Virus record (IMG/VR): IMGVR_UViG_3300042934_000148
Coordinates: 1 to 23,643 of that record
Direction: 5' to 3' (one strand)
Source of the DNA: a virus
DNA: 23,643 bases
A program made the position numbers and the translations under genes. How positions within the stretch are numbered: position 1 is the stretch's first letter; each line of letters begins with the position of its first letter. A model generated the notes under the pieces. The model made no database searches. It was not told where the DNA came from and was given only the letters and a program-made list of their open reading frames with translations. This document shows positions 12,682 to 16,268 of the stretch, in pieces.

Positions 12682-12989
12682 GTATTAACAGCAAACAAGA
12701 AACATATTTACTTAAATGTTGGGCAAAGACTTATGACGAGCTAGGCACACCAATAGAAACATGGGCAGATGTTGCAGAAGTTAGAGCAAGTGTTAATTAC
12801 AACAACACAACCGAAATCATTAACGGTATAGCATACAAAACAACAACACCGACAGCAATAACAGATTACAATGATTTTAATTTAAAAGAAAAATATCAAC
12901 TTGTAAACAATCGGCACAAGTTCAATATTGAGGGCATTAATCAAGAGGGAAGAAAAACACAGCTTGTTTTAAAAGAGGTTTTAATATAA
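12678..12989 (+). CDS. Head closure protein (head-tail adaptor)
   Basis: This 103-residue beta-rich protein is second after the capsid gene, the place of SPP1 gp16-type head closure (stopper) proteins. It contains CWAKTYDELGTPIETWADVA and EVRASVNYNN, a pattern recurrent in the head-tail adaptor family (KTYDELGTPIETW). It should seal the connector after DNA packaging and contact the tail. The start overlaps the upstream stop and the stop TAA overlaps the next ATG (TAATG). Confidence 0.7.
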   Translation: MSINSKQETYLLKCWAKTYDELGTPIETWADVAEVRASVNYNNTTEIINGIAYKTTTPTAITDYNDFNLKEKYQLVNNRHKFNIEGINQEGRKTQLVLKEVLI

Positions 12990-13783: not shown

Positions 13784-14329
13784 ATGCCAACAGATAAAGA
13801 AAAAATTGTACTAGGTAGTGGAAAGTTATATATGGCAGAGTGGGATGGTTTGGCTATTCCTGCAGATGCGACAATAGAGGTAGACGCAAATTTATTAGGC
13901 TTGATTAAAAATGGTGCAAAATTGAATTATACACCAACGTTTTATGAAGCTAAAGACGATTTAGGACTAGCTAGCAAGAAAATATTAACTGAAGAAGTCG
14001 CATCTTTGACAGCAGGGTTGATTACTTGGAGTGGAAAATCAATAAATAAGTTAGTTTCAACAGGAACATTGGCGGAAGCTGCAGGAAAAAGAACTTTAAA
14101 AATCGGCGGTATCGGAAATTATACTGATAAAAAATATGTAATTAGATTTGTGCATAAAGATGCAGTTGATGGAGATATACGGGTAACCATAGTCGGAAGT
14201 AATAACACAGGTTTTGAAATTGCCTTTGCAAAAGAGGGTGAAACAATCCTCAATCCCGAATTTGTGGCAGTACCGAACGACAGCACAGGTACATTGATAA
14301 TTTACGAAGAACAAATTCCAGTAGTGTAA
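13784..14329 (+). CDS. Major tail tube protein
   Basis: This 181-residue beta-rich protein is expected to stack into the tail tube. The opening KIVLGSGKLYMAEWDG with NGAKLNYTPTFYEAKDDLG is the pattern of major tail proteins in Firmicutes siphophages; no Big-2 decoration domain is appended. The place before the tail chaperones and the conserved hairpin after its stop (shared with the capsid gene) both mark it as a high-copy structural protein. ATG 13784 has AAAGGATG at 13769-13776. Confidence 0.83.
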   Translation: MPTDKEKIVLGSGKLYMAEWDGLAIPADATIEVDANLLGLIKNGAKLNYTPTFYEAKDDLGLASKKILTEEVASLTAGLITWSGKSINKLVSTGTLAEAAGKRTLKIGGIGNYTDKKYVIRFVHKDAVDGDIRVTIVGSNNTGFEIAFAKEGETILNPEFVAVPNDSTGTLIIYEEQIPVV

Positions 14330-14371: not shown

Positions 14372-14692
14372 ATGATTGACTTATCTATCATTAACAATAA
14401 AACATTCGATATAAGGCTAAATAATGGCACAGAATTGAACATAAGAAAACCGAACAATGAAATGCTAAAAGATGCCTATAAAATGGCAAATTTGATGCAA
14501 GCAAATGGCGAAGAAGATAAAAATCTCGATTTAATATATTTCTTTTTAACTAAAATGTTTAATCGAAATATTAACGATTTAAAATTTTCAAGGCAGCAAG
14601 TAGAAAATGAAGTTGATATTGATGTTGCGATGTATTTAATAAAGGCTTATCAATCTTTTATAACAGAGGTAATACAGGATATAAATTTTTAA
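14372..14692 (+). CDS. Tail assembly chaperone, short form (gpG-like)
   Basis: This 106-residue protein is made when ribosomes stop at TAA 14690-14692. It has a beta start (FDIRLNNGTELNIRKP) and a helical remainder rich in acidic residues, as in tail chaperones. It lies between tail tube and tape measure, where G/GT proteins coat the tape measure during tail assembly. A slippery heptamer sits immediately before its stop codon. AAAGAAAGGA at 14356-14365 is the ribosome site. Confidence 0.85.
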   Translation: MIDLSIINNKTFDIRLNNGTELNIRKPNNEMLKDAYKMANLMQANGEEDKNLDLIYFFLTKMFNRNINDLKFSRQQVENEVDIDVAMYLIKAYQSFITEVIQDINF

Positions 14693-14964
14693 CAATTCCT
14701 TATTATCCAACAGAAGATAATGAGGAACAACATTATAAGATTAACACAGCAGAACAGAAAATAATTGCAGATTATACAGGGTTAAATTTTAAAGAAATAA
14801 GCGATCTCGATTTTGACGAATACAAATTGCTTTTTAGAGATGCTTACATCTACAGACTGCAACAAACAGAAAAGGGCAGGGAATATTTAGAAAATGCTTG
14901 GATATTTGAGCAGACCGAACCCGATAGAAAGAAATTAAGACAACACTTTTCAAAAGGAGAGTGA
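14372..14964 (+). CDS. Tail assembly chaperone, -1 frameshift fusion (gpGT-like)
   Basis: After a -1 slip at 14683-14689, translation continues from 14689 in the second frame for 91 further residues to TGA 14962-14964, giving 197 residues. The second part reads LTIPYYPTEDNEEQHYKINT, then helices including DFDEYKLLFRDAYIYRL and a GREYLENAWIFEQTEPDRKK end, a normal T-domain-like sequence. This frame has no start codon or ribosome site near its beginning, yet it is fully open and fills the gap before the tape measure. The fusion should bind the tape measure protein and recruit tail tube subunits. Confidence 0.88.
14683..14727 (+). promoter_or_regulatory. Programmed -1 ribosomal frameshift signal
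   Basis: The heptamer A-AAT-TTT (14683-14689) obeys the X-XXY-YYZ rule in the zero frame and directly abuts the TAA stop. Six bases later a 12-bp stem begins: 14696-14707 pairs with 14716-14727 with one G-U pair and an 8-base loop. Spacer and stem length match known frameshift stimulators. Confidence 0.9.
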
Positions 14965-16268
14965 TTTATATAATTGATTTAGGAAAATTAAAAATAACAA
15001 TAGATACAGGCGCACAGCAAGCTAAGCAAGAATTAAATGATGTAGGTGAAACAGCAGAAAAGCAACAAAGTAAATTTAGCAAATTCGGCGAGGGTTTAAA
15101 AAAAGGTGCTTTGATAGGCGTAGGCGCAGCAACAGCACTTGGGGCGGGTATGGTTAAAGTTGCAACAGATGCAGCAGATGCGGCGGGCAATCTTGACGAT
15201 ATGAGCCAACGTACAGGCATGACAGCCGAAGCATTTCAACAGTATGCTTATGCAGCTAAATTAAGCGGTATAGAAACTGAAACACTAGAAAAAGCAATGA
15301 TTAAAAGTCAAACAGCTTTTGCAGATGCTAAGAGTGGTAGCGAAACAATGGGCGCAGCTTATCAAGCGCTAGGACTTAATATTGAAGATATTGGCACATC
15401 GTCAGAAGCATTTGACTTAGTTATTCAAAGATTAGCAGACATGGAAGACGAAACACAGCGAAACAAAATCGCTAATGATATATTCGGGAAGAGTTACGCT
15501 GAATTATCCCCACTTTTAAACGAGGGCGCAGAGGGCATAAACGCACTAAAACAGGAAGCGGTCGACATGGGTGCAGTAATGAGTAATGAAGCGGTTGCTG
15601 CAGGTGCTGAATTTGGCGATAGTTTGGACAAGGTTAAAATGGCAACAACGGGCGTATTTAATGAGATAGGCGTTATGTTTTTACCTATATTGCAGAAATT
15701 GCTTGAATGGGTTACAGGACATATGCCCGAGATAAAAAAGGTCATTGAAACAGTATTCAAAGCAATCGAGGTTATTGTTGGTATAGTCGGCATGGCATTT
15801 GAAGCAATACTCCCTATACTAACAGCTTTGTATGAATGGATAGAGCCATATTTCCCCGTTATTCAATCAATAGTTGAGACAACCTTTGGGGCAATTGGTA
15901 AAGCGGTACAAATAGTTACTGATATATTTTGGGGCGTTGTTGATGCTATTAAGGCAGCTATTGAATGGTTGCAATCATGGAATAATACAGAAGCTGAGGA
16001 CAAAGAAGTTAAAGGAAGCGGTAACAATAGACCGTATAACGGTAGCCACGCTAATGGGCTTGATTACGTGCCATTTGACGGGTACATAGCAGAGTTACAC
16101 AAAGGGGAAAGAGTGTTGACAGCACAAGAAGCAAGAAATGTTAATAACAGTAGCAATATAAGTATAACGGGCAATAACTTTGTGATCAGAGAAGAAGCAG
16201 ACATACAAAAGATTTCAAGAGAATTACAAAGACAAATTTTAACTAAGCAGAGAGGGGCGTTGGCATAA
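14961..16268 (+). CDS. Tape measure protein
   Basis: Up to 435 residues, very short for a tape measure (usually 600-1500). It has an N-terminal coiled coil (about 15-45), a Gly/Ala-rich hydrophobic segment (48-65), a long hydrophobic helical stretch (about 235-330), and a C-terminal GLDYVPFDGYIAELHKGERVLTAQEAR motif, split here across residues typical of tape measure ends. It sets tail length and goes out with the DNA. GTG 14961 overlaps the chaperone TGA but sits only one base from GGAG; ATA 14970 or ATT 14973, giving an IDLGKLKITID start, fit better. Confidence 0.88.
   Translation: MIYIIDLGKLKITIDTGAQQAKQELNDVGETAEKQQSKFSKFGEGLKKGALIGVGAATALGAGMVKVATDAADAAGNLDDMSQRTGMTAEAFQQYAYAAKLSGIETETLEKAMIKSQTAFADAKSGSETMGAAYQALGLNIEDIGTSSEAFDLVIQRLADMEDETQRNKIANDIFGKSYAELSPLLNEGAEGINALKQEAVDMGAVMSNEAVAAGAEFGDSLDKVKMATTGVFNEIGVMFLPILQKLLEWVTGHMPEIKKVIETVFKAIEVIVGIVGMAFEAILPILTALYEWIEPYFPVIQSIVETTFGAIGKAVQIVTDIFWGVVDAIKAAIEWLQSWNNTEAEDKEVKGSGNNRPYNGSHANGLDYVPFDGYIAELHKGERVLTAQEARNVNNSSNISITGNNFVIREEADIQKISRELQRQILTKQRGALA

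Follow-up and report, generated by a model that had tools for sequence, protein, structure and literature searches.

The -1 frameshift that gives rise to the tail assembly proteins gpG and gpGT of phage lambda takes place at the heptamer G_GGA_AAG. In that system (Levin 1993; Xu, Hendrix and Duda 2004, 2013, as cited in PMC5009743) the short form acts on the tape measure and the fusion recruits the tail tube protein, as reviewed in PMC5009743. Internal Shine-Dalgarno (SD) elements act as stimulators in bacterial frameshift signals, for example in an IS911 construct, and the -1 signals of such insertion sequences combine a heptamer, a hairpin and an upstream SD (PMC4066793). In the plant umbraviruses ETBTV and GRV the heptamer AAAUUUU stands directly before a stop codon, UAG in their case (PMC13098196). 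The locus described here, part of a window of 23,643 nucleotides (the whole stretch of viral DNA that was analysed), resembles each of these systems in part. As in lambda, the gene pair is flanked by a probable major tail protein upstream and a tape measure protein downstream, the -1 slip falls near the end of the first gene, the second frame is startless, and a short form with a rarer fusion is predicted; unlike in lambda, the heptamer is A_AAT_TTT, it abuts the stop codon and is flanked by a strong hairpin and an SD-like element, and no lambda-type family is matched in the profile libraries used. The three-part layout is that of the insertion sequences, but these carry other genes and mostly use A_AAA_AAG or A_AAA_AAA. 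ETBTV and GRV share the heptamer and its place at the stop; they differ in being eukaryotic RNA viruses, in having a pseudoknot and long-range stimulators and in using the signal in a polymerase gene (PMC13098196). Among the titles listed from the open-licence literature, no phage frameshift case with AAATTTT or AAAUUUU was found.

The first gene, an open reading frame of 106 aa at 14372..14692 (plus strand, as are the other parts of the locus and its two neighbours), encodes a putative G-like tail assembly chaperone. Read directly from ATG 14372, its last codons are ATA (14681), AAT (14684), TTT (14687) and TAA (14690), and this phase makes the AAATTTT at 14683..14689 a zero-frame X_XXY_YYZ heptamer touching the TAA stop at 14690..14692. 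Heptamers of this form occupy 69 of the 6,580 in-phase positions in the genes of the window (1.0%), and two of them have a -1 frame that continues for more than 20 codons beyond the gene stop: that at 14683-14689, which alone abuts the stop, and one at 12968, where the -1 frame enters the frame of the overlapping next gene. The -1 frame extension at 14689..14964, a T-like domain, reads 91 aa from 14689 to a TGA at 14962-14964 and would give a fusion of 106 + 91 = 197 aa. Within it lies a putative stimulatory hairpin (14696..14727) in which TTCCTTATTATC at 14696-14707 pairs with GATAATGAGGAA at 14716-14727, forming 12 bp with one G-U around an 8-nt loop (14708-14715); the spacer between heptamer and hairpin (14690-14695) is 6 nt, inside the 5-9 nt range of a -1 signal. 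The initial annotation had proposed a programmed -1 frameshift here from a correctly phased A-AAT-TTT touching the TAA, a 12-bp stem with one G-U starting six bases later and a -1 frame open for 91 residues to 14964 with no start of its own, and the codon reading, the folding and the scan for starts bear out each of these elements. Frameshifting by -1 at A_AAT_TTT, which would produce both the chaperone and the 197-aa fusion, is the best explanation of this arrangement, and we hold it with high confidence.

Homologues were collected by searches with the products of the two neighbouring genes, the major tail protein and the tape measure protein, and with a profile of the C part, that is, the portion encoded by the -1 frame. 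The best 80 of the 226 relatives reached by the C-part profile were kept, and 25 more were taken from named genomes; single-sequence scans with either half returned one near-identical contig and nothing else. Removal of near-duplicates left 91 junctions, L002 being a near-duplicate of the window. The homologues occur in viral contigs and in Clostridia and other Bacillota (Anaerotignum, Caloramator, Caldicoprobacter, Peptostreptococcus and Lachnospiraceae, among others), a phage family associated with gut and environmental bacteria, and two matches in bins labelled Parabacteroides and Kiritimatiellae may be binning errors. Judged by these relatives, the host of the window phage is probably a Clostridia-type Bacillota. 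A search of 50,697 phage records with the C part of the window gave two matches, among them Dulem virus 30, and the family is thus thinly represented among annotated phages.

Conservation of the heptamer and covariation of the stem in homologous phages had been put forward in the initial annotation as checks on frameshifting, and both were run. An in-phase canonical X_XXY_YYZ heptamer is present at the same codon in 82 of the 91 non-redundant relatives, its letters varying between A_AAA_AAC (40), C_CCA_AAC (38), A_AAT_TTT (2, the window and L006), A_AAA_AAA (1) and C_CCA_AAT (1). The remaining nine comprise six with related G-run sites, namely G_GGG_GAA (4), G_GGG_GAG (1) and TTG_GGA_CAA (1, L086), one with A_AAA_AAG (L166) and two in-frame fusions (L160, L163); a single-frame fusion of N and C parts in these last two is counted in support of the frameshift fusion. 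In most relatives the zero-frame stop directly follows the heptamer. Compared with its near relative L002, the window differs at 3 of 103 nt within the junction (14630-14732) and at 51 of 487 nt elsewhere in the gene pair (p = 0.014). Relatives in which the heptamer and stem had been lost and the second frame had gained its own start were looked for, and none was found.

The -1 frame opens at 14623 and, scanned over 14623-14826, contains no ATG, GTG or TTG; the first candidate is TTG 14827, deep inside the domain. In the family alignment the conserved residues of the C part start at the junction itself, with L1, P4 and Y29 invariant, and a second frame that is startless yet conserved as protein is characteristic of G/GT-type pairs. 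Given that overlaps of stop and start are common in the window (the GTG of the tape measure gene lies over the TGA at 14961), and that GenBank starts the second half of Dulem virus 30 internally, it might be supposed that each frame is a gene in its own right and that translation of the second begins after the TAA, either by re-initiation or at a weak internal start. However, this is very unlikely on three counts: first, there is no start codon in the -1 frame from 14623 to 14826. Second, because the conserved residues begin at the junction, a start at 14827 would remove about half of the domain. Third, were the genes independent, nothing would explain why 82 of 91 relatives keep a heptamer at the same codon. 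In the case of Dulem virus 30 (L166; PP511706.1, 2076-2713), a distant relative in which A_AAA_AAG abuts TAG, the GenBank record starts the second half at an internal ATG and calls it a short hypothetical protein, and the frameshift is therefore unannotated.

The hairpin has a minimum free energy of -13.4 kcal/mol, compared with -3.0 +/- 1.7 kcal/mol for dinucleotide shuffles (z = -6.0; 0 of 200 shuffles as good). Synonymous recoding of the -1 frame gave an equally stable fold in 6 of 500 variants. Folding predictions recover the hairpin in 79 of the 82 canonical relatives, with a median arm of 12 bp and at a fixed distance from the heptamer, a count that, like the covariation figures below, does not represent independent events given that the family sequences are related; in the other three canonical relatives (L036, L060 and L126) there is no clear hairpin of this kind. 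The stem is maintained through compensatory changes: arm position 18 is U-A, C-G, G-C or A-U, and position 20 is A-U, C-G, G-C or U-A. Pairing of each 5' arm with the 3' region of its own phage averages -15.5 kcal/mol, compared with -10.7 kcal/mol with the 3' arms of other phages, and none of 10,000 arm-swap permutations matched the own pairing, the best reaching -11.8 kcal/mol. In a 21-row alignment the covariation score is 0.296 versus 0.205 when shuffled, above all 500 shuffles and all slid versions; in the same alignment, pairs changed on both sides (4 observed, 3.1 expected) are not above shuffles. In a control that preserves the peptide, z averaged -2.7 across 22 members, most of which fold better than their synonymous recodings. 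Upstream, an internal SD-like AGAGGT at 14665..14670, absent from the initial annotation, lies 12 nt 5' of the heptamer (anti-SD pairing -7.1 kcal/mol) and is a putative upstream stimulator, of a kind that is optional in bacterial -1 signals. Across the family its position is conserved, with a peak of anti-SD pairing centred roughly 9 nt 5' of the heptamer (mean -3.1 versus a background of -0.9 kcal/mol); the peak is partly due to the encoded residues and is still stronger than under synonymous recoding (Wilcoxon p = 0.002).

A further possibility is that the frames are joined during transcription, RNA polymerase adding or dropping a base at AAATTTTT such that some mRNAs carry the fused frame. 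The junction does hold an A3T5 run, but this scenario is as improbable as that of independent genes: runs of three A and five T are generally short for polymerase slippage, nearly half of the relatives have CCCAAAC, in which the longest run is three, and a hairpin that covaries as RNA implicates the ribosome. That one open reading frame was split by an error of sequencing or assembly, or by decay of the gene, has a still smaller probability and is excluded by the relatives, for although the window is one virus-contig record, the same break occurs in 82 independent relatives with the protein conserved on both sides, including named-strain genomes such as Caloramator quimbayensis (L145). By its strength and its place directly after a stop codon the hairpin resembles a terminator or attenuator with no part in frameshifting, but this reading is equally negligible given that its 3' arm is followed by no T-run, that the tape measure gene lies downstream and that its distance from the heptamer is fixed across the family. 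The separate-gene, transcriptional-slippage and terminator readings are rejected on this evidence, and programmed -1 frameshifting is supported by the 82 of 91 heptamers and 79 of 82 hairpins.

Chaperones of the G/GT type are absent from the virion, G binding the tape measure and T the tail tube. The placement of the gene pair is that of this type. Upstream, at 13784..14329, lies a gene matching PHROG 2175 ('protein with Ig domain'), whose position suggests that it is the major tail protein; downstream, at 14961..16268, lies the tape measure protein, whose GTG start overlaps the TGA of the -1 frame. A gene like the major tail protein is found upstream in 70 of 73 family members, and a long open reading frame right downstream in 59 of 64. 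The N part matched PHROG 29863, a family of unknown function, in 21 of 21 members tested; Pfam gave no tail-chaperone match for N parts, and with NCBIfam one N part of 56 reached NF047360 tail_chap_PVL (E 0.0076). Neither half has a Pfam or NCBIfam model of its own, the C part matching no Pfam family and giving scattered weak PHROGs matches only. Structures were predicted from alignments with no row from the phage collection. The AlphaFold2 model of the N part (pLDDT 87.7) is matched best in BFVD by a tail assembly chaperone, though weakly (E 0.011, TM 0.59), and its second-ranked PDB match in Foldseek, the best meaningful one, is the HK97 tail chaperone 2ob9, again weak (E 1.5, TM 0.46, 14-16% identity); in VIA-align 2ob9 (Z 3.9) is not above unrelated folds, an unrelated flagellar chaperone reaching 4.6. 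For the C part, predicted to be all-helical, the fold search was empty, and no known T protein was matched by sequence or fold. Sequence searches of the PDB with profiles gave nothing relevant, and Rfam gave one chance match and nothing real. Gene order and, weakly, the predicted fold of the first product support the identification of the gene pair as a G/GT-type tail chaperone, as the initial annotation had proposed in calling the product a tail chaperone fusion. At 435 aa the tape measure protein is short beside the downstream frames of the relatives, whose median length is about 820 aa, and a short tail is predicted as a consequence.

The initial annotation had also cautioned that AAATTTT is not the commonest bacterial heptamer and that its efficiency merited measurement. 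This caution is reasonable, but a weak site is not expected: in a survey of all 64 heptamers in E. coli, perfect re-pairing of the A-site tRNA is the main rule for efficient bacterial motifs, R_RRU_UUY stands out as an exception with good shifting, above what its composition would suggest, and A_AAA_AAC, common in the present family, is of low efficiency (PMC4066793). Given that the A-site tRNA re-pairs perfectly (UUU to UUU) and that the site belongs to the R_RRU_UUY exception, a competent site is to be expected under the best rule available. Efficiency rules from E. coli may not carry over to the host of this phage, and we know of no check of them in Clostridia. As for the mechanism, we infer that most ribosomes would make the 106-aa chaperone and terminate at TAA 14690, and that the hairpin would stall a fraction of them when AAT occupies the P site and TTT the A site. 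The two tRNAs would then slip back by one base, onto AAA and TTT, and translation would continue with TTA at 14689 as the next codon to give the fusion of 197 aa. If lambda gpG/gpGT is a guide, the short form may coat the tape measure protein and the rarer fusion may recruit the major tail protein via its C-terminal domain; the ratio of the two would depend on the heptamer and the hairpin, and probably also on the internal SD-like element.

Frameshifting in tail assembly is of a known kind; the family described here lacks a model in Pfam and NCBIfam, and the heptamer of the window is uncommon within it. A large chaperone family of Bacillota phages is thereby added to the known tail-assembly frameshift, with a startless second half that ordinary gene calling would lose or truncate. 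Given that the heptamer varies in one fixed context, the family forms a natural series for testing slip sites in Clostridia. It is tentatively suggested, with rather more doubt than conviction, that the slip site is interchangeable (A_AAA_AAC, C_CCA_AAC, A_AAT_TTT, A_AAA_AAG and the non-canonical G_GGG_GAR) while its position, the hairpin and the SD-like element are fixed, a target frameshift rate being kept through different tRNA pairs, and that G_GGG_GAR is a working site outside the X_XXY_YYZ rule. If so, G_GGG_GAR would be a natural site at which only the P-site tRNA re-pairs perfectly; the pattern may belong to the class that PRFect proposed as 'fivetwo' (PMC10885494), with which it is equated by name only.

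Some individual relatives depart from the common arrangement. The carriers of G_GGG_GAA or G_GGG_GAG (L022, L023, L027, L132 and L142) have it at the same place before the stop. In L034, L035, L036 and L037, A_AAA_AAC and C_CCA_AAC occur in tandem, nine bases apart and both in phase before the same stop. In L025, L064, L105, L149, L150 and L151 the zero-frame stop comes 21 to 78 nt past the heptamer, which places it inside or beyond the hairpin. The single-frame fusions (L160:3770-4264 and L163:3188-3685) have a shortened N part and a major-tail-like gene upstream, and are followed by an open reading frame that is not a tape measure and that we take, from our own reading of its sequence, to be prohead-protease-like.
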